This document shows, piece by piece, positions 2,044-22,673 of a stretch of 33,710 nt of DNA (positions within the stretch are counted from its first letter, which is position 1; each line of letters begins with the position of its first letter). Below the pieces are notes generated by a model. The model was not told the origin of the DNA. It saw only the letters and a list, made by a program, of their open reading frames with translations, and did no database searches. The position numbers were made by a program, and so were the translations under genes. The stretch lies in contig PWYL01000058.1 in the NCBI GenBank assembly GCA_003568315.1, positions 1-33,710 on the forward strand, in the 5' to 3' direction. This DNA is from Mollicutes bacterium. Lineage in GTDB: Bacteria; Bacillota_I; Bacilli_A; Izemoplasmatales; Izemoplasmataceae.

Positions 2044-2943
2044 ATGTTGGCACAACTCTTGAAAGAGTATGAATACGAACTGAAAGCGGCGCGGAATCTG
2101 AGCAAGAACTCCATCCGGGCCTATCTTTCCGATTTGCAAGGGTATGTGGACTATCTTGCCGAACGGGAGGTTCGCGATCCCGCCGCCATCACCAAGACGA
2201 TGGTCGACCGCTACCTCATGACCCTGCGGAAGAAGAAGGCCTCCGCGGCGACGGTATCCAGGAAACTCTCGGCTCTCAAAGGTTTCCACCAATACCTCGT
2301 CGACGAACGCGTCGTGGAAGAGAACATCATCTTGAAGGTCCACCGTCCGAAGATGAAAAAGCGGCTCCCCGACATTCTCACCATCGAGGAGCTGGAGGCC
2401 ATCCTCGAAGCCACAAAGGGGAAGACCCCGCTCGCGCAGAGAAACCTCGCGATGATCGAGCTCCTCTACGGCAGCGGACTCAGGATCAGCGAACTCATCG
2501 GTCTGCAGACCCGCGACCTCCACATCAACCAGGGTTTCGTCAATGTCACGGGGAAAGGCGACAAGGAACGCATCGTCCCGATCGGCAGTGCGGCGGCGAG
2601 CGCTTTGAAGCGCTATCTTGAAGACGGGAGGCTCCAACTTTCCAAGGCCCCCGTTCCCGATGTCTTCTTGAACCGTTTCGGCCGTCCCATCGGCCGGGTG
2701 GGCTTTTACAAGATCTTGCGCGACCTCACAATGAAAGCGGGGCTCGACAAGGACGTGAGTCCGCACACCTTGCGCCACAGTTTCGCCTCGCACATGCTCG
2801 AGGCGGGGGTGGACCTCCGTTATGTGCAGGAGATGCTCGGTCACGCCGACGTCTCGACCACCGAACTCTACACCCACATCAACAAAAAACAACTCATCGC
2901 GGTCTACGACAAGTATCATCCGCATGCGAAAAGGAGCGAATGA
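2044..2943 (+). CDS. xerD: Tyrosine recombinase XerD
   Basis: This is a site-specific tyrosine recombinase that resolves chromosome dimers at dif together with a XerC-type partner. At 299 residues it is close to the E. coli XerD length (298). The N-terminal SAM-like core-binding domain covers about residues 1-90 and the catalytic domain about 105-290. All catalytic residues are present: R147 in [10 protein letters not shown]171 in [12 protein letters not shown]241 and R244 in PHTLRHSF, H267 in MLGHADV and the nucleophile Y276 in ELYTHI. I chose the ATG at 2044, after a GGGGGTGG stretch; a TTG at 2041 is an alternative. Only one base separates its stop from the start of deoB. Adjacent xerD-deoB also occurs in Bacillus subtilis (ripX-drm), which supports a chromosomal housekeeping XerD rather than an integrase. 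No dif site was recognised in the window. Confidence 0.93.
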
Positions 2944-2944
2944 C

Positions 2945-4120
2945 ATGTTTGAAAGAATCTTTCTCATCATCGCCGACAGCGTCGGCATCGGGGCTATGGA
3001 AGACGCCCACGAATACGGCGACGAAGGGGCGAACACCCTGAAGAACATCGCCGAGAGCCAAAACGGGATCCACCTTCCCCACATGGAAAAACTCGGTCTC
3101 GGCCATCTCGCCGACATTCAAGGTGTAGCACCCGTCGCTTCCCCCGCGGGCCGCCACACCCGGATGAAAGAACTTTCCGTCGGCAAGGACACGATGACAG
3201 GTCACTGGGAACTCATGGGACTCAAGGTGACAAAGCCCTTCCGGACCTTCACCGATCGTGGATTCCCCGCCGAACTGATAGAAGCCCTCGAAGCGAGGAC
3301 CGGCCGCAACATCACAGGCAACAAGGCCGCAAGCGGCACCGAGATCCTCGACGAACTCGGCGAGCACCAGCTCGCCACGGGGGATCTCATCGTCTATACT
3401 TCCGCCGACAGCGTTCTGCAGATCGCCGCGCACGAGGAGAAGGTGGGCCTCGAGGCCCTGTATGAAGCGTGCGAGATCGCCCGTGAACTCACCATGGACG
3501 AACGCTTCAAGGTCGGCCGCATCATCGCCCGCCCCTTTGTGGGCGAAGGGAAGGGGCGTTTCCGTCGCACGGCTGCTCGGCGTGATTACGCTTTGAAGCC
3601 TTATGCCCCGACGGTTTTGAACTATCTGGAGGATGCGGGGTTCACTGTCGCCGGCTTCGGCAAGATCGAGGACATCTATGCGGGCGAAGGCATCACAGAA
3701 AGCATAAAACAAAAAGACAACAACGAAGGCATGGAAAATCTCACCGCCTACGCGGACAAGGATTTCCGGGGCCTGGCCTACCTCAATCTCGTCGATTTCG
3801 ACGCCAAATACGGTCATCGTCGCGATCCCGCCGGCTACAAGGAGGCCTTGGAGGCTTTCGATGCGAAACTTCCGCCCCTGATGGAGAAACTCGGGGAAAA
3901 AGACCTCCTCGTCATCACCGCCGACCACGGGAACGACCCCACCCATGCGGGGACCGACCACACCAGGGAATATGTGCCTTTGCTCATGTATTCTCCCTCG
4001 CTTTCGGGCGGCGCTTTGGCAGAACGCGAGACCTTCGCCGATGTCGGCGCCACCATCGCCGACAATTTCGGTGTGAAGCTGCCCCCTCACGGGAAGAGTA
4101 TCCTCGACGAATTCGACTGA
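2945..4120 (+). CDS. deoB: Phosphopentomutase DeoB
   Basis: Converts (deoxy)ribose 1-phosphate to (deoxy)ribose 5-phosphate in nucleoside catabolism, linking nucleoside phosphorylase to DeoC. The 391-residue length matches the family (about 390). It belongs to the alkaline phosphatase superfamily, with two manganese ions. Expected residues are visible: D11 in IIADSVGIG, the phosphorylated threonine T85 in [10 protein letters not shown]286 and H291 in [13 protein letters not shown]327-H328 in TADHGNDPT, and H339 in TDHTRE. The middle cap domain holds TRTxxRxDYALKP-like sequence at about residues 208-219. The ATG at 2945 is one base after the xerD stop, with AAGGAG about 10 bases upstream inside the end of xerD, so the two genes are co-transcribed. 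Its pathway partners deoC and deoD lie about 24 kb away in this window, in another operon. Confidence 0.95.
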
Positions 4121-4252
4121 GCTTCATAGCGGGGCTTTGTCCTCGCTTCATGACACGTTTGCCGCTTTTTGAGAGGCCATTCGGAAGGGAAGGCCATGGC
4201 GGCGAATGTCACCCGTGTTTCCCACGATCCGGAATGAAGGAGGTCGGAATGC

Positions 4253-4441
4253 ATGCCGATCAGCAACCCCGACAGGCACAAGAATGCCTACACACACAAA
4301 CTCACCGAAAAAGACCGGGGCGAAAGAAGGACGAATCACGGGGTCAAAAGCACCTCATGGGTTCATGCGGCGCTGGCCGTTCTCGCGGTGGCGGCCCTGA
4401 TAGGGCTCATCTTCTTGCTCGGGCATCTTATCGGCGGTTGA
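4253..4441 (+). CDS. Small single-helix membrane protein, function unknown
   Basis: I do not recognise this 62-residue protein. The first 33 residues are highly charged and polar (KNAYTHKLTEKDRGERR). The last 27 form one strong hydrophobic helix starting at WVHAALAVLAVAALIG and ending LLGHLIGG. This suggests a small tail-anchored membrane protein with its N terminus in the cytoplasm. The start is supported by a GGAGG at 4239-4243, nine bases before the ATG. Other frames across this stretch give no hydrophobic helix. It lies 132 bp after deoB and before the terminator at 4529, so it could be the last gene of the gltS-hemW-xerD-deoB run. Short length and lack of a known family make it only moderately certain. 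Confidence 0.5.
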   Translation: MPISNPDRHKNAYTHKLTEKDRGERRTNHGVKSTSWVHAALAVLAVAALIGLIFLLGHLIGG

Positions 4442-4528
4442 GGAAAAGAACACCACCTTCCCAAAAAGGCCGCCTTCGGCACCTTCCTTTCCGGTAGGGA
4501 TAGAAAGAGGTGTCTTTGTCAATGGAAA

Positions 4529-4569
4529 AACCGCCCCTTCACCAATCTCGGTGAAGGGGCGGTTCTTTT
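4529..4569. terminator. Strong two-way intrinsic terminator
   Basis: A perfect 15-bp inverted repeat, AACCGCCCCTTCACC at 4529-4543 and its complement at 4550-4564, encloses a 6-base loop. On the + strand it is followed by CTTTTT. On the - strand it is followed by TTTTTCC, so it can stop transcription from both sides. It lies between the + strand operon ending at 4441 and the - strand coiled-coil gene whose stop is at 4588. Confidence 0.93.
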
Positions 4570-4587: not shown

Positions 4588-7479
4588 TCAGGACTTGTAG
4601 CGGGCTTTGAGGTCTTTCAACGCTTTCCTTTTCTCTCTTTCGATGTTCCGTTTCGCCTTTTTCTCTTTGATGTGCTGTGACGAAGCGACCCGCTTCACGA
4701 ATTCGGTATAGCCCTTCAAAGCGGGACGGATGTGGCTGTCGAGTTCGGCCTGCATGTTCTTCAAGCGTTTCTTCCGCTCCTCGAGAGCCTCTTCGAGTTC
4801 GGCAAGTTGGCGTTTGCGGATATCCCTCTGTGTTTTTTGCAAGTCGGCGATATGGTTTTTCAAGTGTTTCTCGAGCGTTTCCTTGCCGGTATCGAGACCG
4901 TCCTTGTCGAGCTCTCCGCGGAGACTTTCCGTTTTCTTCACGAACGCGTCGCGTTCCTCATGGATTTCGGCCATAATCTTCTCATAACGGGATTTCTCTT
5001 CGGTCAGCGCTTGTTCCCGTTGTGCTTCGATACGGGCCGTCTCTTCCTCGATCTCGACGCGCTCGGGCTTCTCGCCTTCTTCCTTCTGCAGACGCTCGAG
5101 GGTGGCTTGCAGTTCCTCGATACGCTGCCGGGGGCCGGCGATTTTTTCCTCGTAGGTCTCTTTTGCTTCTTTCAGAGCCTCTTCATGTCGCATCTTGGCG
5201 GTCTTACCGGCCTCTTTCTCGATATAGGGGGCGAGGGAGTGTTCGGCGGTGTCCTTCTTTTTGAACTGCTCGAGTTTCTCCCTGTTGGTCTCCAACATGG
5301 TCTCAAAGGTCTCTTTTGTGCGGTCGCGGAGTTTCTTCGCGTCCTCACGGGCCTTGTCCGCCCGTTCTTGCGCGGCTTCGAGCTGCCTTTTGTAGCGTTG
5401 GACGTAGGGGTCGTTCTCCTCTTTCGCGCGAATGCCGGCGATTTTTTCGCCGTATTCGGCCTTGATGATTTCTTCGCGCTCTTTCAGTCGCCGTCTGTCT
5501 TTCTCGTCGGTGAAGAGAGCCAGGCGGTAGGAGATGTCTTCGAGTTTGTCGTCGCGTTCTTCCTCGAGCTCGCGGATGTCGGAGAGATATTTCTGCCGGT
5601 GGGTGGCCAGCTTCTCCTCGGCATATTCGAGTTCTTTCTGGAAAGCCTTGTCGATGTTCTCGAGCCGGAGGTGGTATTCGTTTTCGGCGAAGTCGATCTG
5701 TTGTTCGGCGAAATGGATCTGGCTCTCGATGGTGGTTCCGACCATCGCCTCGTTGACATTCTGGCCGATGTTCAGACGTTCCGTCTGCGCCTTGGTGAGG
5801 TTCATCTCACTGTCATAGAGGGAATCGATCTTCAAGAGCTGGAGTTCATGCTCCTTGTCGGCGAGGTCGATGAGCGCCTTCTGGTAGATGAGTTCGCTTT
5901 TCGCCTGCTCTTCGGCGTTCAGTCTCTCGATCGTGGAGGTCTTCTTGATGTCGGTGAGGGATTTGTCGATGTTGTCGAGTTTTTGGCGGTGTTGGACCCG
6001 GAGGGCATGCTCGCGGATGGTGTGTTCGATGCGGGCGGCCGTCTCGCGCTGGGAGAAGTGTCGGAGACGGAGCTTTTCGGCAAGGTCGAACTGGGCCCTT
6101 TTGAAACTCTTCCGGAGCGGTTTCAGTTTCTCGAGGAGAGCGATTTCCTCTTTGAGGTAGGCCTCGTGCTTGTCGGCGAGGAGGTCGTGGAAGGCCGCGA
6201 TGAAATCCACCACGCCGCGGATGAACTGTTCGAAGGCGTGGAAACGCTTCTCCATCGTTTTCACGAATTCGGCGTTGAACGCGAGGTCGTGCCGCAAGGC
6301 CTTCTCGTCTTCCTGCAGTTTGAAGATTTCTTGCGACTCGGAGAAACGGATATCTTCCCTGGTTTTCTCGAAACGGAGGTCGTGGAGCTTCTCGAGATAG
6401 GCCTTCTCGGCTTGGAAACGTTCCTTCTCGATTGTTTTGAATTCGGGTCCGAGGCGTTTTTGGGTCCGTTCTTCGATTTTTTTCTCCCGGAAAGAGGAAG
6501 CGGCCCGCTCTTTCTTCGCGTAATCCGCCCAGAGTTCCTTGAGTTCTTCTTTGGCGCCCTTTTTCTCCGCGGCGACGATTTTCAATTTGAGTTCCTTCAG
6601 TTGTTGCTCGACCACCTTTTTTTGGCCCTTCTCTGCTGAAAGGTGTTTCTCGTGCCGCTTCTGCAAGTCATCAAGGATGGTCTGTTCCAAATTCTCCCGC
6701 CGCTCGTCGAAGGCTTCCATGGCATTCTTCAGCTCGTTCTTGAGGCGTTTTTCCTCTTCGGCGAGTTCGGCCTTGCGCTCTTCGTGCGTACGCTTGACGC
6801 GTTCATCGAGCGTCTCTTCATCGTCTTCGGTCCTGAGCATATGCAAACGTTCCGAGACGAGTTCTTCCAAAGCGGGGAGAAAATCGTCGAACGCCTCGGC
6901 CAAGGCTTTCGATTGGTTGTCAAAAAGTTCGAGGATATGTTCGGTCCGTGATTTTTCGAGATAGTGCCGGCAGAAATAGGTTTCGCTCTTTTTGAAGACC
7001 TCCTCGATGAACTCGAGCGAGGCGCTCCGGAAGGATTGCAGGAAGACATCGCCGTCCGGGCTCTCTTCGGCTTTTTCGGAAAGGACGGAAAGAAGCCTTT
7101 CTTTCAGGGCTTCGCCGGTTTCTTCCCTGTTTCTTGAGAGGAAGGTCTCGGTGAAACGGGCGCGCATGTCGGAAAGGGCCCGGAAGATCCGGTCCTTGGA
7201 ATCGAGAAGATAGGTGAGTTGCGCGATGGTGGTCTCTTGGTCCTTTTGGTTGATTTCCTCCTTGAGACGGTCGATCTCCGCATTCAAAATGCGGAGTTTC
7301 TCGTCGGTCTCCTCGAGGCGTTTTTTGTGGGACTCCTTGACCTTGCGGTTGGCCTCGACGACTTCCTGGATGAGATTCTGCAAAAGTCTCGATTCCTTTT
7401 GCAGATTCGCATCGACCAAGGAAGTCAGGTTCTTCTTGGACGCGGATTCGTTTGTGAGGTCGTATTTCTTCTTCGCCAT
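4588..7479 (-). CDS. Giant coiled-coil protein, 963 residues, unknown family
   Basis: I do not recognise a family. Apart from a short polar N terminus (MAKKKYDLTNESASKKN), the protein is almost wholly alpha-helical heptad sequence rich in E, K, R, L, A and Q. It has about nine prolines, one Trp (ELWADY) and one Cys (YFCRHY). There is no signal peptide and no clear transmembrane helix, so it is probably cytoplasmic. Less charged, aromatic-rich helices interrupt the coil near residues 145-180 (FLQSFRSASLEFIEEVF) and 405-435 (FEQFIRGVVDFIAAFHDLL), and may be packing or hinge modules. The sequence ends very basic (KKAKRNIEREKRKALKDLK). The ATG at 7479 follows AGGGAG by about nine bases; the open frame continues upstream to 7767 only through the neighbouring gene. 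It is second in a two-gene operon, 31 bp after the other giant coil. A structural or cytoskeletal role is inference; SMC/Rad50-like ATPase motifs are absent. Confidence 0.85.
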   Translation of the reverse strand: MAKKKYDLTNESASKKNLTSLVDANLQKESRLLQNLIQEVVEANRKVKESHKKRLEETDEKLRILNAEIDRLKEEINQKDQETTIAQLTYLLDSKDRIFRALSDMRARFTETFLSRNREETGEALKERLLSVLSEKAEESPDGDVFLQSFRSASLEFIEEVFKKSETYFCRHYLEKSRTEHILELFDNQSKALAEAFDDFLPALEELVSERLHMLRTEDDEETLDERVKRTHEERKAELAEEEKRLKNELKNAMEAFDERRENLEQTILDDLQKRHEKHLSAEKGQKKVVEQQLKELKLKIVAAEKKGAKEELKELWADYAKKERAASSFREKKIEERTQKRLGPEFKTIEKERFQAEKAYLEKLHDLRFEKTREDIRFSESQEIFKLQEDEKALRHDLAFNAEFVKTMEKRFHAFEQFIRGVVDFIAAFHDLLADKHEAYLKEEIALLEKLKPLRKSFKRAQFDLAEKLRLRHFSQRETAARIEHTIREHALRVQHRQKLDNIDKSLTDIKKTSTIERLNAEEQAKSELIYQKALIDLADKEHELQLLKIDSLYDSEMNLTKAQTERLNIGQNVNEAMVGTTIESQIHFAEQQIDFAENEYHLRLENIDKAFQKELEYAEEKLATHRQKYLSDIRELEEERDDKLEDISYRLALFTDEKDRRRLKEREEIIKAEYGEKIAGIRAKEENDPYVQRYKRQLEAAQERADKAREDAKKLRDRTKETFETMLETNREKLEQFKKKDTAEHSLAPYIEKEAGKTAKMRHEEALKEAKETYEEKIAGPRQRIEELQATLERLQKEEGEKPERVEIEEETARIEAQREQALTEEKSRYEKIMAEIHEERDAFVKKTESLRGELDKDGLDTGKETLEKHLKNHIADLQKTQRDIRKRQLAELEEALEERKKRLKNMQAELDSHIRPALKGYTEFVKRVASSQHIKEKKAKRNIEREKRKALKDLKARYKS

Positions 7480-7510
7480 GAGAGGTGACTCCCTTCGTCC
7501 TCGTCGTGGG

Positions 7511-10500
7511 TCATACGGAGCTTTTGGTCTTGATCGCGCGTTTCGTCTCCTCGACATAGGCGTCGATGAGGGTGTCTTGTTCGTCGAAGAGCTCATCCAG
7601 GGCGCTTGTATGGTCAAGGGCCTCGAAAGGCGCTTCTTCGAGCTTTCCGACCACGATGCTGCCAAGGCGGTCGCACGCTTTCTGGAGCGATTCCTGCAGT
7701 TCCTTCTCGCGCTTTCCGACGATCTCTTCGAGATGTTCCTTGCGGGCTCGCTTGATGCGCGCCTCATCCTCGATCTTCCGGCTCACATCCTCGATCCGGT
7801 CGTCCAATTCGTCGGAAGCGGATTGCGCTCTTTGTTCGTGGTCCGCGGTGATTCTCTTTATGCGTCCGTTTTCTTCTTCGATGGCGGTCTTCTTTTCGGC
7901 GCCGAGGTCGTCCAACGCGTCCTGCATCTTCCGGTACGCCTTGTCATAGGCCTCCTGGTTGGCCTCCAAGGTGGTCTCGAGGGTGTTTTCGATCTCCTCG
8001 CGGGCGCTTTCCGCGTTCTCTTTCGCACTCTCGTTGATGACCAGCGCGTCGTCGAGTCGCTCGTCGACTTTCTTCTTCATGGCGTCGAAATGCTCGTCGA
8101 GACGTTTGCGTCTCTCATCCATCTGTTCGCGCACCCGCGTTCCCCGTGTTTCCCGTTCTTTCTTCTCGTCGAAGGCGGGAGCGCCGTTTTGAGCGATTTT
8201 TTTCTCGAGCCCTTCCAATCGTGCGAGCATCTCCTTTTGCTCTTTGGCGACGGGTTCGCGGCTTTCGGAGATTTTCGCGTCGTATTCTTCCTTTAGGACT
8301 CGCAAAGCTTTGTCGCGTTCCGATTGGATCCTTCGCCCTTCTTTTTCCAGGGGGATTCTTTCTTCCCGATGACGCTCTTGGGCTTCCTCTTTTGCTTTGA
8401 GACTCGAGTTCTCGGCGCGTTCGATGAGTTCGACATCGCTCTCCATGAGGGGGTAGAAGAGTTTCTCGAGGGTCTTATCGACATGGGAGGCATAGTCTTC
8501 GACCAGGGTGCGCGCCTTATCGCTCAAGGGGGAGAGGACATTCCGGATCCGGTCTATGGATTGGGTTTTGTGGCGGCGGAGCTCCTTGTCCGCCGCTTTG
8601 TGGGCCGATGTGAAGTCGTCGATGATCTCTTGGGCCTCTTTCTTGTGGTTCTTTTTCGACCGCTCCTTCATGGCGGCGAGCCGTTCGACGTGAGCGTTAC
8701 GTTTCTTCTCGTCGGGCATCTCTTCGGCGGCCTCTTTTTCGGCCAAACGGAAGAGGAAATTGTCTGCGTCCTGCAGCGTGCCACAGCCGAGTTCGATCGT
8801 CTGGACGAAACGCTCGCGGAAAGAAGCAGCCGCGACGGCGAGGAGTTCCTTCAGCGAGGCACCTTCTTTTTGCAGGCTTTCACGGTGGTCCTCAAGAGTG
8901 TCGAGGATTTCCTTCGCGCGCTCTTCGAGCGGCTCCAGACGGTTCCTCGCCATCTCTTTCACGTTTTCGATGTTCGCGTTGGCGTTTTCGGTTTCCCGCC
9001 GGAGAGCCTTGTCGATGAATCCGATTTGGCGTTCGTGTTCTTGTTCGAGGTCTTTCAGTTTTTTCTCGACGACGTCCGTTTTCTCGCGGTAGGCGTTTTG
9101 GAGCTCCCTTTCCTTTTCGGCGAGCTCGGATTCGAGTTTCCGTTTTGACCGCTCGATGGTGGCATCGATACGGTTCAACCGCTTCTTGGTCTTTTCCATC
9201 TCGAGTTCGAGGGCGATGCGTTCGCTCGTCTTTCCCTCTTCGTGTTCGGCTCGATGGAGTTCCGCGTCGCGTTCCGCCTCGAGCAGCCGGATTGTCTCCA
9301 TGGCATCGAGCCGCTCTTTCTCGAGCGCGTGACGTTTCTCGATTTGCGCCTTGTCGGCGACGTTCTGCTTTTTCCTGAGTTCGTGGCGGCAGGCGGCGAG
9401 TTCTTCGTCCCTTTTCTCTCCGAGTTCTTGAAGCGCGGCGATGCGCCGGGCTTTCAAATCGGCGAGGTACTGTTTTTCCTTTTCCACATGGAGGTGGTTC
9501 AAGAGCCGTTTCTCCTCGAGGGCGTAGTCGCGTTCGAGACGGGCGATGCGGATTTCGTGCTCTTTTTGGAGTTTCTTCATCTCGAGTCGCCACCGGGCCT
9601 CGCGCTTTTCAGCCTCGATTCTTTCTTTGCGGATGCGAATCTCCTTGAGCGCATCCTTGACATCGAGGAAATAGCGGATGTCATCAGCTTCCGCATACAA
9701 GGGGACGAGCGAGCGTGTGGTGTCGGCGACGGCTTTCAACCGCTCGGTTTCGAACTCGTAAAAAGCCTTGAAGAGGGAATGGAAAAAGGTCTTCAAGGCA
9801 TCCAAGTCGTCGCTCGGCGACTGCTTGTCGATATGGTCGCTCACGGCGGCGACGAGTTTCGGGCTCTGGTTTTGGAAGAGGTCGAACTTCCGTTTGAGTT
9901 TCGTCTGGTGTTCGTTGATGAGCTTCTCGTGCTGTTCGAGGGTCTCCTCGATGGTCTCGCGGGTTTTCCCCGCCATCGATTTGAACATGTCGAGAGTCTT
10001 TTCCACGGCGTTCTTCAGTGCGGCTGTGTGGTCTTTGAGGGCATTCTGCCTTTCGATGTTCAGTTCGATCTGCTTTTCCAATTCTTTGTCCGGCTCCTCG
10101 CCGCCTTCTTTGGATTGTTTTTTGGCGAGGTTGGAAAGACGGGTGCGTTCGGCGTTCACATCGATACGGAGCCGGTTCTGGAAACGTTCCTCATAGGCCT
10201 TGAAAAAGGCGGTGACGTCATTCAGGGACTGTTCGAAATCGAAAAAGGGGCGCTTGAGCCGCTGTTCCATCTCCGTCAGGAGTGTGGTGATCTCCTTGAT
10301 GGTCTTGTTCAAGTCCCTTCTCACTGTGTTGATGCGGTGCTGGAGAGCGTTGTCCTCGCGTTTCATGGCCGCCTTGACGTCCTCTGTGTTCTTGTCGAGG
10401 CGCTTTTCCAGCGGGCGGAAGGCTTTTTCTATCGTCTTTTCCAATTCCGAAAGGCGGCGTCTATCTTCCGAATAGAGTTTCTTCAGTTTCTCGAGGGCCT

Positions 10501-11005
10501 CTTCGAGAATCTCGCGGCACGCTTTCTTGTTGGTTTCGAGATTCTGTTCGTAGAGGTCGATCTTCTCTTCATAGACCTTGGTGCTCTCTTGGCGCTTCTC
10601 GTCGATACGGGAAATGCGACCTGCGATCTCGCCTTCGATCTCTTCGATTTCCTTCTTGAGAGCCTTGGCGGTCTTCTCGTGGTTGGCACTGATCGCCTCG
10701 AGCTCTTTTTGGACGTTTCTTTCCGCTTCGGTGATACGTGCGGTCTGATTGTCGATCTTGGCCGTATATTCCTTCTCGAGTTCGCGTTTTTTTCGTGCAT
10801 GTGTCTTCTCGATCCGCTGGATTTCGACCTGGTGTTCTTTTTCGTTGGTCTCGAACTCTTTCTGCGCCCGGGAGAGGACAGCCTCTTGGCGTTCTTTGAG
10901 GCCGTCGAGGGTGCTTTGGACGGGGTCGATTCGCTTTTTGTATTCGCGCTCGATCAAATAGAGCTTCTGTTCGAGCGTGGCGGCGCCATTCTTGCCTTTT
11001 TCCAT
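7511..11005 (-). CDS. Giant coiled-coil protein, 1164 residues, unknown family
   Basis: I do not recognise a family. From about residue 5 to about 1130 the sequence is nearly continuous heptad-type coil, very rich in E, K, R, L and A, with four Cys, one Trp (EARWRLEM) and no transmembrane or signal segment. Breaks with more hydrophobic or aromatic character occur at about residues 253-275 (PFFDFEQSLNDVTAFFKAY), 370-425 (DLFQNQSPKLVAAV, then FFHSLFKAFYEFE) and 722-760 (SFRERFVQTIELGCG). A glycine/proline break lies near 940 (AQNGAPAFDEKK). The C-terminal 40 residues are less coil-like and acidic, ending KTKSSV. There is no Walker motif, so it is not an SMC-type ATPase. The ATG at 11005 has a strong GGGAGGTG ribosome site; a start 10 codons upstream has none. 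It leads the two-gene operon and has its own promoter. Similarity in type to the 963-residue neighbour suggests the two proteins work together. Confidence 0.86.
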   Translation of the reverse strand: MEKGKNGAATLEQKLYLIEREYKKRIDPVQSTLDGLKERQEAVLSRAQKEFETNEKEHQVEIQRIEKTHARKKRELEKEYTAKIDNQTARITEAERNVQKELEAISANHEKTAKALKKEIEEIEGEIAGRISRIDEKRQESTKVYEEKIDLYEQNLETNKKACREILEEALEKLKKLYSEDRRRLSELEKTIEKAFRPLEKRLDKNTEDVKAAMKREDNALQHRINTVRRDLNKTIKEITTLLTEMEQRLKRPFFDFEQSLNDVTAFFKAYEERFQNRLRIDVNAERTRLSNLAKKQSKEGGEEPDKELEKQIELNIERQNALKDHTAALKNAVEKTLDMFKSMAGKTRETIEETLEQHEKLINEHQTKLKRKFDLFQNQSPKLVAAVSDHIDKQSPSDDLDALKTFFHSLFKAFYEFETERLKAVADTTRSLVPLYAEADDIRYFLDVKDALKEIRIRKERIEAEKREARWRLEMKKLQKEHEIRIARLERDYALEEKRLLNHLHVEKEKQYLADLKARRIAALQELGEKRDEELAACRHELRKKQNVADKAQIEKRHALEKERLDAMETIRLLEAERDAELHRAEHEEGKTSERIALELEMEKTKKRLNRIDATIERSKRKLESELAEKERELQNAYREKTDVVEKKLKDLEQEHERQIGFIDKALRRETENANANIENVKEMARNRLEPLEERAKEILDTLEDHRESLQKEGASLKELLAVAAASFRERFVQTIELGCGTLQDADNFLFRLAEKEAAEEMPDEKKRNAHVERLAAMKERSKKNHKKEAQEIIDDFTSAHKAADKELRRHKTQSIDRIRNVLSPLSDKARTLVEDYASHVDKTLEKLFYPLMESDVELIERAENSSLKAKEEAQERHREERIPLEKEGRRIQSERDKALRVLKEEYDAKISESREPVAKEQKEMLARLEGLEKKIAQNGAPAFDEKKERETRGTRVREQMDERRKRLDEHFDAMKKKVDERLDDALVINESAKENAESAREEIENTLETTLEANQEAYDKAYRKMQDALDDLGAEKKTAIEEENGRIKRITADHEQRAQSASDELDDRIEDVSRKIEDEARIKRARKEHLEEIVGKREKELQESLQKACDRLGSIVVGKLEEAPFEALDHTSALDELFDEQDTLIDAYVEETKRAIKTKSSV

Positions 11006-11050
11006 CCTTGCACCTCCCGACTTGGTGTATGACACACAATTCTCCCTATC

Positions 11051-11079
11051 ATTTTATCACAGGCCAAGCGCAAAGACAA
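11051..11079 (-). promoter_or_regulatory. Promoter of the giant coiled-coil operon
   Basis: Reading the - strand, a -35 of TTGTCT (11079-11074), a 17-bp spacer and a -10 of TAAAAT (11056-11051) form a good sigma-A-type promoter. The spacer ends in TGA, so the -10 is also of the extended TGn type. The expected transcription start is about 35-40 bases before the ATG at 11005. The leader holds a small inverted repeat, GTGT-N5-ACAC, on the + strand at about 11025-11037, which could be an operator. No other strong candidate lies before the gene. Confidence 0.7.
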
Positions 11080-11212: not shown

Positions 11213-12220
11213 ATGAGCGAACGAATCGTCAGTGCCGACAAACAAAAAGAAGACATCGAGCAGATCCGTCTGCGCCCCGCACGACTCGACGAATACATCG
11301 GGCAGGAACGCGTCAAAGAGATGATGGCCATTTTCATCCAGGCCGCGAAAAATCGCAACGAGGCTTTGGACCACGTCTTGCTCTATGGTCCTCCCGGGCT
11401 GGGAAAGACAACACTCGCCAACATCGTCGCCAACGAGGTCGGAGCCGACATCAAGACCGCGAGCGGCCCTTCCATCGAAAAGAGCGGCGACCTCGCCGTA
11501 CTCTTGACGGACCTCGAGCCCGGCGACATCCTCTTCATCGACGAGATCCACCGTTTGCCCAGGGTTGTGGAGGAGGTCCTGTATCCGGCGATGGAGGATT
11601 ATGTCATCAATCTCATCGTCGGCAAGGAAGAGACTTCGAAAGCCATCCGCCTCGACCTTCCGCCTTTCACGCTGATCGGGGCGACGACACGTTATGGTGA
11701 CCTCACCGCGCCCTTGCGCGACCGATTCGGCGTGGTACACAAACTCGAATACTACGACGAAGACGCCCTCGCGAAAATCTGTGCGCGGACAGCGAAAATC
11801 TATGGTGCGAACATCGACAAACAAGCGATCGGCGAAATCGCCAAACGGAGCCGCGGCACCCCCAGGATTGTGAACCGCATCTTCCGGAGGGTCCGCGATT
11901 TCGCCGATGTCTTGAACGAGGGCGAGATCGACCTACCCGTCACGAAGAAGGCCCTCGACAAACTCCAGATCGATGCCATCGGCCTCGACAGCAAGGACCG
12001 CGACTATCTCCAAGGCCTCATCGAGGGTTACGGCGGCGGCCCCGTCGGTGTCGAGAGCCTCGCTTCCTCGATAAGCGAAGAGGTCACGACCATCGAGGAC
12101 GTCTATGAACCCTATCTCTTGAAACTGGGTTTCATCAAGCGCACCCCGCGGGGACGCATGGCCACGGAGAAAGCCTACAAGCATCTCGGCAAGTCCTATC
12201 AGGGCGGACTTTTCGAATGA
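11213..12220 (+). CDS. ruvB: Holliday junction branch-migration ATPase RuvB
   Basis: This is the AAA+ motor that, with RuvA, drives branch migration of Holliday junctions during recombinational repair. The 335-residue length is normal. Visible motifs are the RuvB N-terminal signature ([14 protein letters not shown], about 18-31), Walker A GPPGLGKT (59-66), Walker B LFIDEIH (107-113), sensor 1 in [10 protein letters not shown] and the arginine-finger region PLRDRFG. The C-terminal winged helix covers about 255-335 and ends with the familiar [25 protein letters not shown] pattern. The ATG at 11213 follows AGAGGTGAG. It overlaps queA by four bases (ATGA). In most Bacilli ruvA lies directly upstream; here the coiled-coil operon occupies that place on the other strand and no ruvA is seen in the window. 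Confidence 0.97.
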
Positions 12221-16044: not shown

Positions 16045-16079
16045 ATTGAGAGCAAGAAGAAGGAAACCAGGTGACCCGT

Positions 16080-19035
16080 ATGCGTAGGAAAGAATATCGT
16101 GTGGGCATCGATATCGGGAGCACGACCATCAAGGCCGTCGTGCTCGACGAGAGGGACCGGATCGTCCACAAGACCTATGACCGCCACATGAGCAGTATTT
16201 CCATCTCGCTCAAGGCGATGTTCGAGAAACTCGAGGAACGGTTCGGCGACATCCCCATGCGTTTCAACTTCACTGGAAGCGCGGGGCTCTCCCTCGCCAA
16301 GCATATCGGCGCTCAATTCACACAGGAAGTCATCAGCGCCACGACGGCGCTCAGACATCATGTTGGAGGCATTGATGTTTGCATCGAACTCGGCGGCGAG
16401 GATGCGAAGATCATCTTTTTTGACGGTGCCAATATCGAACAGCGTATGAACGGCACCTGCGCCGGCGGGACCGGCGCTTTCATCGACCAGATGGCCTCCC
16501 TTCTCGACACCGATGCCGCCGGGGTGAACGAGCTTGCCAAGGACTACGAGAAACTCCATGACATCGCCTCCCGCTGCGGCGTCTTCGCAAAAAGCGACAT
16601 CCAGCCGCTTTTGAACCAGGGTGCACGGAAGGAGGACATCGCCGCCTCGATCTATCAGGCCATCGTCAACCAGACGATCGGCGGTCTTTCCCAAGGCAAG
16701 AAAATCCGGGGCAAGGTCGCCTTTTTGGGTGGACCGCTCACCTTTTCGAGCGAACTCCGCAAGCGCTTCATCGAATACTTGAACCTCGAGGGCGTCTACA
16801 CGCCCGAGAACGGAGAGGTCTTCGTCGCCATCGGCGCCGCGCTCGAGGCGAAAGAAGCGCCGTTCAGGATCGAAGAAGTCATCGAGAGGATCAAGGCGTA
16901 TCGCCGACGCCACAAGGATGCCATCCGCAAGACCGTCGAGCCCCTTTTCAGCTCCGAAGCGGATTATGAGGAATTCCGGAAGCGCCATGAGAAGGCTTCA
17001 CTCGAGCGTATCGATTCCGGCGGATACCGGGGGAACGCTTATCTCGGCATCGACGCCGGCAGTACCACGACGAAGATGCTTCTCATCGGCGAGAATGAGG
17101 AGATCCTCTACGAATATTACGCCCACAACCGCGGCAACCCCGTCGACGTGACGCGCCGGGCCCTTCAGAGGATGTATGATTCCCTCCATGAAGGCATCAT
17201 CATCAAAAAGGCCTTCAGCACGGGCTATGGTGAAGAGTTGATCAAGAACGCCTTCCGCTTGGACGGAAGCGAGGTCGAGACCATCTGCCACTACAACGCC
17301 GCGAAATATTTCGATTCCGAGGTCGATTTCGTCGTCGACATCGGCGGACAGGATATGAAATGTTTCAAGATCCGCGACGGCGTCATCACGACGATCATTT
17401 TGAACGAGGCCTGCTCGAGCGGCTGCGGCTCCTTCGTGGAGACTTTCTCGGAATCCTTGGGTTATGAGATCAAGGATTTCGCCCGCCTCGCGCTGAAAAG
17501 CCGCGAACCCGTCGATCTCGGCAGCCGTTGCACCGTGTTCATGAATTCGAGCGTCAAGCAGGCCCAGTCAGAAGCCGCGAAAACCGAAGACATCTCCGCC
17601 GGCCTCGCCATGAGCGTCATCAAGAACGCCCTCTACAAGGTCATCCGCGCCCATGATGTCAAAGAGGAGTACGGGGATCGTATCCTCGTGCAGGGCGGCA
17701 CGTTCTTGAACGATGCCGTGCTCCGCGCTTTCGAAAGGGAAACCGGTGTCGAAGTGACGCGACCCGCCATCGCCGGCCTCATGGGAGCTTTCGGTGCCGC
17801 GCTCCTCGCGAGAAAGGCCGCCCATCCCGCCAACCACAGCACGCTTTTGGACACGGAAGAGCTGAAAAAATTCTCCTATGACACACGTCGTGCGACGTGC
17901 CGGAAGTGCGAAAATCTCTGCGCCTTGACCGTGAACATTTTCGGCGACGGTTCCCGCTACATCAGCGGCAACCGCTGCGAGAAGGGCGCGGGCCTCGAGA
18001 AGGGCTATGACGAGCTGCCCAACCTCTATCTCTACAAATACGACAAGGTCCTCTCTTATCAAAGCGATCCCGACAAGGACTACGCAAAGACCGTCGGCAT
18101 TCCACTCGTTTTGAACATGTACGAGAACATCCCCTTCTGGCAGCCCTTTTTCGATGCTTTGGATGTGCGCGTGGTCTACAGCGACCGTTCGACGAAGAAA
18201 CTCTATGAGGACGGACAGGATTCCATCCCGAGCGACACCATCTGCTATCCCGCGAAACTCGTGCACGGACACATGGAATCTTTGGAGCGAAAAAATCCCG
18301 ATTTCATCTTCTACCCGAACATCCCCTTCAACTTCAACGAATCCCCCCATGCCGACAACCACTTCAACTGTCCCGTCGTCGCCCACTATCCCGAAGTCAT
18401 CAACGCCAACATGGACCACCTCGATCTCGTTCGTTTCTTGCAGCCCTATCTCACGTTGAACGATAGAAAGAAGTTCATCGATGTCGCCCACGCAGCTTTG
18501 GCCCCCCATCTCAGGGTCACGAAAACCGCGCTGAAAAAGGCCTATGACAAGGGCATGGCCGCTTATGGGGCCTTCCGGGAGGATGTGCAGAAAGAAGGCG
18601 AACGCGCACTCGCCTACGCCCGGGAGAACAATCTCAACACCATCGTCCTCGCCGGCCGTCCCTACCATGTCGACCCCGAGGTCAACCACGGCATCCCGAA
18701 ACTCATCCGGAGCTTGAACGTCGTACTCGTGAGCGAAGACGCCGTGAACCATCTCGCCCAAGAGGAACGTCTGGGGGTCTTGAACCAGTGGACCTATCAT
18801 ACGCGTCTCTATGATGCCGCGAAAGCGATCAAGGACATGGAACGGGTGAACCTCGTGCAACTCGTCAGTTTCGGTTGCGGCCTCGATGCCATCACCACCG
18901 ACGAGGTCCAAGACATCCTCGAGAAAAACGGCAAGTTCTACACCCAGATCAAGATCGACGAGATTTCCAACCTCGGTGCCGTGAACATCCGTCTCCGGAG
19001 TCTCCTCTCGACAATGAAAAAGGAGGCTGAAGGCC

Positions 19036-19049
<14 letters not shown>
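16080..19049 (+). CDS. 2-hydroxyacyl-CoA dehydratase activase-like protein (two activase domains + DUF2229)
   Basis: This large protein (989 residues) carries two ASKHA-fold activase (BcrAD/BadFG) domains. Domain 1 (about 1-265) has GIDIGSTT at 9-16, then cysteines in NGTCAGGTGAF and SRCGVFAKSD that match the two cluster ligands of HgdC-type activases. Domain 2 (about 318-590) has GIDAGSTTTK, NEACSSGCGSF and SRCTVFMNSS. A cysteine-rich CRKCENLC follows at 607-614, then a DUF2229-type region to the end. Family logic is ATP-driven electron delivery from a bridging 4Fe-4S cluster to a dehydratase-like partner, which is the next gene. The natural substrate of this widespread fused type is unknown. 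I chose ATG 16080 after AGGTGA; GTG 16071 after AAGGA is an alternative. The end overlaps the next gene by 14 bases in another frame. Confidence 0.9.
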
Positions 19050-21512: not shown

Positions 21513-22673
21513 ATGTTCGAAAAAGACGACCATTTCACCCAAAAACCTTCAATCAAAGTCATCGGCATCGGCGGTGGCGGCGGCAACGCCGTCAACCGCA
21601 TGATCGAGAACGAGGTGAAAGGGGTCGAATTCGTCGGCATCAACACGGATGCCCAGGTCCTCCGTCTTTCGCATGCCGATATCCGCCTCCAGATCGGCAA
21701 GAGTCTCACACGGGGACTCGGTGCCGGCGCCGACCCCGAAATCGGCCGCCGGGCCGCTTTGGAAAGTGAAGACGAACTGCGCGACCTCCTCAACGACACC
21801 GACATGGTGTTCCTCACCACCGGCATGGGCGGGGGCACCGGAACGGGCGCCGCGCCGGTCATCGCCAGGATCGCCCGTGAATGCGGGTGTCTGACCATCG
21901 GCATCGTCACCAAACCTTTCAAGTTCGAAGGAAGACGCCGCGTCGCGACCGCCCTCGAAGGGCTCGACGCCTTGAAACCCTATGTCGACACGCTCATCAT
22001 CATCCCCAACGACCGCCTCCTCTATGTGGTCGACCGCAACACCTCGATGCTCGAGGCGTTCCGCGAAGCCGACAACGTCCTCCGTCAGGGTGTGCAGGGC
22101 ATCGCCGAGATCATCACGGTGCCCGGCCTCATCAACGTCGACTTCGCCGATGTCAAGACCGTCATGAAAGACAAGGGTACCGCCCTCATGGGCATCGGTA
22201 TCGCTTCCGGCGAAGGCCGGGCGACCGAGGCCGCGAAGAAGGCGATCCACTCGCCGCTTCTCGATGCGAACATCGACGGTGCGACGGATGCCATCGTGAA
22301 CGTCACGAGCGGTACCGACATCTCGCTATGGGAAGTCACCGAAGCGATCGAGGCCATCCAGGCCGCCAGTTCCACCGAAATCAACATCATCCACGGAGCG
22401 ACCATCAACGAGGACCTCGAGGAAGAGGTCATCGTCACAGTCATCGCCACCGGTTTCGACGAGAAGAAGAAAATCGAGATCGACCAGCTCGGCGAGAGCG
22501 AATACGTCGAGACCGAGTATTCGCCGAAGCCGCAAGGGAAGTCTTCGAAAAAACCCGCGAAAAAAGCTGACAAAAAGAAGAAGAACAAGGCCGAAGAGGC
22601 GTCGAAGAAAGAAGAGGAGAAGGAACCGAAGAAAGAGAACATCCCCTCTTGGCTCAAAACCCGCTTCAAGTGA
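21513..22673 (+). CDS. ftsZ: Cell division protein FtsZ
   Basis: This tubulin-like GTPase assembles the division ring at midcell. It has 386 residues. The GTPase domain contains [14 protein letters not shown] (17-30), the tubulin signature [10 protein letters not shown] (106-115) and the T7-loop NVDFAD (208-213), which supplies the catalytic aspartates. A lysine/glutamate-rich linker (about 335-375) leads to the C-terminal peptide [10 protein letters not shown] (377-386), the conserved docking tail for SepF, FtsA and other partners. The ATG at 21513 has GGAGGT six bases upstream. The order ftsZ-yggS-sepF-yggT follows, as in Bacillus-type clusters, but no ftsA precedes it: tgt does. It has its own probable promoter. 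Confidence 0.98.

Follow-up and report, generated by a model that had tools for sequence, protein, structure and literature searches.

Paired giant straight-helix proteins beside ruvB as candidate scaffold components of wall-less, Izemoplasma-like bacteria

Rods of the crescentin and FilP type are long, soluble, helical proteins, and the IF-like architecture has been loosely delineated by a helical rod exceeding 80 residues in a protein that has neither a signal sequence nor a membrane segment and carries no further functional domain (PMC2680258). Crescentin itself has 457 residues and forms a heptad coil in which the repeat is broken only by local stutters, if at all (PMC10873595). The two giant helical proteins considered here, termed A and B, are encoded by adjacent genes in a 33,710-nucleotide stretch of DNA (hereafter the window; contig PWYL01000058.1) from a Mollicutes bacterium of the order Izemoplasmatales. 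Their all-helical models, together with the lack of recognizable domains and of any hydrophobic segment, agree with the above architecture, and they share with the crescentin/FilP-type rods a candidate cytoskeletal role. However, A and B are more than twice as long as crescentin, occur as a pair, and display a straight-helix repeat of 3.62-3.69 residues in place of the heptad value of 3.5 that typifies crescentin-type rods, all of which speaks against the comparison with crescentin drawn in the first-pass annotation of this DNA. Profile searches of the PDB also recovered no sequence relation to crescentin or to any other solved IF-like protein. No support was obtained for counting A and B among the known IF-like families, while a function as a structural rod is plausible and may involve filament formation.

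The pair lies on the minus strand as an operon read in the order B to A, with the 1164-residue B (7511..11005) separated by 31 bp from the 963-residue A (4588..7479). Both frames are intact, with B recovering homologues at the same locus and A recovering profile matches, and together they occupy 19% of the window. Upstream of B lie a promoter-like site on the minus strand (11051..11079; TTGTCT-17-TAAAAT with a TG ahead of the -10), recognized in a consensus scan purely by its match to the consensus, and a Shine-Dalgarno sequence on the same strand (11011..11018; GGGAGGTG) with the ATG 5 nt further on. A strong terminator hairpin of 15 pairs (4529..4564), detected by a hairpin scan and in the sequence itself, separates A from the side on which deoB converges; its T-tract was called on the plus strand, and the minus strand is T-rich too. 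Thus, the adjacency and lengths of the two genes, their own extended -10 promoter and terminator, and their share of nearly one fifth of the window were correctly described in the first-pass annotation. Long antisense open reading frames overlie both genes; nothing independent supports them, and we attribute them to codon usage.

The locus is anchored by the divergent ruvB (11213..12220, plus strand; Pfam RuvB_N and RuvB_C) and, on the other side, by the converging phosphopentomutase-like deoB (2822..4120, plus strand; Pfam Metalloenzyme), both of which are found in the same place in relatives. The ftsZ gene (21513..22673, plus strand; Pfam Tubulin and FtsZ_C), situated ~10 kb from B, was considered only as context. 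Between deoB and the terminator is a 115-residue ORF (4150-4497, plus strand) with no Pfam match and a hydrophobic C-terminal stretch resembling a single membrane anchor. Further along the plus strand, positions 16071-19049 encode a 992-residue BcrAD/BadFG plus DUF2229 protein of the 2-hydroxyacyl-CoA dehydratase activator type, with a 424-residue ORF after it; ORFs of the same sizes come after ruvB-queA in the close relatives L041, L045 and L047-L049. The genome from which the window derives comprises 1.41 Mb and is 97% complete. Its closest named ruvB loci belong to MAGs from soda-lake sediment labelled 'Mollicutes bacterium' and 'Candidatus Izimaplasma', which points to an Izemoplasma-like lineage.

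The residues E, K, R, L and A abound in both proteins and G plus P are scarce (2.7% of A and 3.3% of B), with strong hydrophobic residues accounting for ~23% of A. Neither contains a Walker A motif, and no membrane or signal segment was detected, as the 19-residue Kyte-Doolittle mean never reaches 1.7 in any A or B sequence from families f1 and f3. Searches of Pfam and NCBIfam gave no match over cut-off for either protein, no PHROGs family matched A or B, no phage record matched A, and the SMC_N model had no match in either. Profile searches of the PDB with A and B retrieved only generic amphipathic helices (apolipoproteins and designed bundles), and Foldseek comparisons of their models against the PDB retrieved only generic long helices, mainly the arms of SMC, MukB and condensin, with TM-scores of at most 0.13. 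We found no paper on these proteins in the literature. On the whole, these results uphold the earlier statements that the pair lacks ATPase, membrane and secretion motifs and that no named family fits it, and the structure search proposed there yielded generic helices with no family match.

Analysis of hydrophobic periodicity placed the peak at 3.62-3.63 residues in B and at 3.62-3.69 residues in A. In the same test the SMC arms used as a control peaked at 3.49 and synthetic heptads at 3.50, and the power of B at 3.50 is near background. A and B are therefore almost wholly helical but non-heptad, and their original description as nearly all heptad coil is wrong. In B the power of the hydrophobic stripe is still climbing at windows of 300 residues, meaning that its phase is held over what would amount to ~45 nm of helix, which implies long straight helices. 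The A proteins of family f1 show this phase coherence only weakly, with local windows ranging from 3.4 to 3.85. A straight alpha helix has a period close to 3.62, which leads one to expect straight bundles or helices lying on a surface, and not a left-handed two-stranded coil. The maintenance of a 3.62-3.63 stripe over hundreds of residues in B represents an unusual helix design in comparison with the heptad coils of the known bacterial cytoskeletal rods. AlphaFold2 predicted both proteins to be all helix, with pLDDT 74 and pTM 0.35 for A, which has a helix of ~180 residues, and pLDDT 76 and pTM 0.32 for B, which opens with a helix of ~290 residues; at these pTM values the local helices are believable and the overall shape is not.

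Conserved islands were identified in both proteins. The sole island above threshold in A spans residues 536-614 (79 residues; 5638..5874, minus strand; LIDLADKEHELQLLKIDSLYDSEMNLTKAQTERLNIGQNVNEAMVGTTIESQIHFAEQQIDFAENEYHLRLENIDKAFQ), and contains a predicted helix break of low pLDDT near residues 565-577 along with the invariant residues Q594 and E601. This island is likely to be a joint or a binding or attachment site. The strongest island of B comprises residues 435-463 (9617..9703, minus strand; PLYAEADDIRYFLDVKDALKEIRIRKERI) with a nearly invariant D441, and a further conserved island is seen at residues 850-861 (8423..8458, minus strand; FYPLMESDVELI), where D857 is nearly invariant.

A single-sequence search with A recovered 36 of the 61 genomes of the order, and a profile search of 346 genomes of the class recovered matches in 39 genomes of the order, with six weak matches restricted to short stretches outside it. 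The distribution of B follows the same pattern, and no matches to A or B were listed from the mycoplasma-like families f6 and f17. The mapped loci share one layout, in which hemN-xerD-deoB converge on the pair and ruvB-queA diverge from B, and the pair occupies this position in nearly all genomes of the order with an assembled locus, so that its presence beside ruvB in related genomes, which had been proposed as a check, is established. Wherever the locus is complete, A and B are adjacent, in unchanged order and in single copy. Homologues of B occupy the locus in families f1 and f3, and lengths are held at 922-989 residues for A and 1145-1200 residues for B, though identity to the window proteins drops to 15% and 10%, respectively. 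Comparison of A with an 81%-identical relative gave a dN/dS of 0.12 by NG86 (dN 0.11, dS 0.87) and 0.23 by YN00, and A is under purifying selection. One carrier of the locus, L042 (PULU01000115.1), belongs to a MAG titled 'Thermoplasmata archaeon' and differs from the 'Mollicutes' contig L041 at 8 of 15,234 bases; it looks like a misbinned contig within the archaeal MAG.

The profiles missed family f2, yet one of its genomes (L144) carries, at the same place, a 1113-residue and a 931-residue ORF, both long and helical. The first of these is homologous to B as judged by profile comparison (E 3e-13 over 617 collinear columns; the reversed-profile controls gave 0.01 and 0.003), while the second was matched to A on size and position alone. 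Hence, the view that f2 and many other genomes lack the pair was mostly rejected. Absences in G005, G020, G023, G026, G032 and G053 are uninformative because ruvB itself was not found there. Two states of genuine loss are seen: G017 (L149) shows a clean deletion that leaves ruvB 11 bp from deoB, with A nowhere else in the genome, and G008 (L133) has lost A and retains only a 702-residue B-like gene. Counting open frames had pointed to a 2143-residue fusion of B and A in G019, but this was discarded because the sequence shows B stopping at its own stop codon. Paralogy of A and B was not accepted either: comparisons of full-family profiles gave E values of ~1e-9 to 1e-10 with the register roughly constant, as against 1e-5 to 1e-6 for reversed controls, and registers disagree between sub-family profiles, making the relationship suggestive only.

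The order in which the pair is conserved is wall-less. No peptidoglycan transpeptidase (PF00905) was detected in any of its 61 genomes, while 10 of 14 control genomes were positive; a wall is not visible in a cultured Izemoplasma (PMC8397711), and the order has been described as being without peptidoglycan (PMC10868615). FtsZ is present in 57 of the 61 genomes, at a distance from the pair that varies, being ~10 kb in the window and, for example, 25 kb in G015. Strong MreB matches, occurring as tandem genes, are confined to some genera (three tandem mreB genes are seen in G011, G013, G015, G021, G027, G031, G033, G052 and others). In the genome of the window the MreB profile gave only a weak match to a 614-residue frame, the size of DnaK, and no canonical MreB; other genera likewise yielded nothing beyond a weak DnaK-sized match. 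The presence of MreB does not track that of A and B. The pair is retained in genera with three MreB genes as well, and so does not simply substitute for MreB.

Beyond the order, we examined as much as 19 kb of sequence flanking ruvB in 53 other genomes of the class, and added L132 and L053. All examined genomes of f12 (12/12), f16 (4/4) and f22 (2/2), as well as L053, have a single giant coil of 1126-1240 residues that diverges from the ruv genes. The single-coil loci are L157-L162, L168, L187, L191-L199, L132 and L053, and include a goat-rumen 'Acholeplasmatales' MAG; f12, f16 and f22 are probably Acholeplasma-like. In L053 and L132, ftsZ converges directly on the single coil. No giant coil was present at ruvB in the loci examined from f5-f11, f13-f15 and f17-f21. 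Shorter helical genes of ~610 residues with ~2% G plus P occur near ruvB in f18 and in one f2 genome (L167 6895-8739; L186 6679-8505; L145 9965-11794). The single coil resembles B in position, length, G/P-poor composition and a 3.62 period that is coherent over 300 residues, and differs from the A-B arrangement in being one gene rather than two. Its homology to B by sequence was considered and not established, the forward E values being 1e-12 to 1e-13 and those of reversed controls 1e-8 to 1e-10. In a scan of 149 genomes for the transpeptidase, no f12, f16 or f22 genome was among the positives, and a giant coil occurs in none of the 20 transpeptidase-positive loci examined, a correlation that extends over few independent events given that these three families may be one related group. 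The converse fails: f6, f9 and f17 are transpeptidase-negative too, yet a giant coil is missing from their ruvB loci.

The above observations suggest that A and B could well constitute an intracellular structural scaffold of wall-less, Izemoplasma-like cells, a proposal that we regard as evenly poised. Under it, the two would be partner components, soluble and cytoplasmic, whose long straight helices might pack side by side to form rods, filaments or a network, with the island at residues 536-614 of A as the likely joint or attachment site; such an assembly would provide mechanical support or cell shape. The proposal draws support from the absence of the transpeptidase in the order and of a canonical MreB in the genome of the window, from the soluble and domain-free nature of the proteins, and from the restriction of giant coils at ruv to transpeptidase-negative families in the loci examined. 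The constant adjacency of the genes, the purifying selection on A, the absence of enzymatic, membrane or secretion domains, the all-helical models and the coherent stripe of B, with its narrow hydrophobic arc, also favor it, and the retention of length at low identity is as expected of a ruler or rod protein. Against it stand the non-universality of the pair (the G017 deletion and the G008 locus without A), the families f6, f9 and f17 with neither transpeptidase nor giant coil at ruvB, the retention of the pair alongside three MreB genes in some genera, the low confidence of the models and the weak coherent stripe in A of f1. The cytoskeletal or cell-shape role raised in the first-pass annotation is thus supported by context, namely wall loss together with soluble and domain-free proteins, while it stays conjectural, and the length and repeat of A and B speak against a likeness to crescentin.

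An alternative that we consider rather doubtful is a membrane cortex of apolipoprotein- or spectrin-like kind, in which the long straight amphipathic helices would rest flat against the inner membrane face and stabilize a membrane that lacks a wall. The 3.62-3.63 stripe does run straight along the helix, as in surface-lying helices, and the profile of B weakly matches apolipoproteins A-I and A-IV (E about 7e-5), whose helices are likewise long, amphipathic and non-heptad; however, any two long, charged amphipathic helices would be expected to give such a match, and the helical span of A and B is ten times longer than that of the apolipoproteins and lacks a secretion signal. Moreover, helical-wheel statistics showed a hydrophobic arc approximately as narrow as that of SMC arms, with K and R not enriched at the polar/apolar border and with acidic and basic residues over the entire polar face, unlike the broad apolar face and basic border of class A lipid-binding helices. 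The narrow arc and the lack of a lipid-binding charge pattern favor helix-helix packing over lying on the membrane, and the low share of strong hydrophobic residues in A also speaks against a cortex.

Less probable still is a division scaffold, in which the rods would brace the FtsZ ring or set its position as wall-less cells divide. The broad retention of FtsZ in the order, its proximity to the pair in the window and the direct convergence of ftsZ on the single coil in L053 and L132 are compatible with such a role, but the distance to ftsZ is variable and G017 keeps ftsZ in the absence of the pair. Similarly, we consider it quite improbable that A and B are headless SMC-arm-like rods that act as a tether with RuvB or in nucleoid organization, despite the constant adjacency to ruvB (and to ruvA-ruvB in f12, f16 and f22) and the recovery of MukB and condensin arms as the best fold matches. 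The arms of SMC, MukB and Rad50 are long helices like A and B, but the latter have a straight rather than heptad periodicity, and the fold matches, with TM-scores of about 0.1, are generic. An SMC-like identity was rejected in view of the missing ATPase head and Walker A motif and of the SMC_N matches found separately, on other contigs of the genome. Transcription of the pair also runs away from ruvB, whose constancy as a neighbor is matched by deoB, xerD and queA. The idea of a phage tape measure, another mobile-element protein or decaying pseudogenes, to which length and helical composition alone lend any appeal, is refuted by the lack of phage families and records noted above, the fixed single-copy synteny in a housekeeping context, the intact frames and the purifying selection. 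A clear match to a known family, such as an SMC-like protein or a tape measure, and absence from all relatives with signs of decay had been named at the outset as the outcomes that would speak against the annotation, and no SMC head, phage match, decay or general absence from relatives was found.

Returning to the structural scaffold, a broader and decidedly tentative extension is that the giant coils at ruv represent an unnamed class of skeletal proteins, namely straight-helix, non-heptad rods, single in the Acholeplasma-like lineages and paired in the Izemoplasma-like ones, which might have arisen around the loss of the wall and might stiffen or shape wall-less cells. If the single coils at ruv in the Acholeplasma-like families are orthologues, the question would become testable in cultured laboratory organisms, and the loss states in G017 and G008 offer a useful means of asking what else changes without the pair. 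The question addressed is how free-living wall-less bacteria maintain shape and osmotic resistance without peptidoglycan and, in the organism studied here, also without MreB. The conserved pair of giant rods provides a concrete candidate for what may hold shape in such cells.
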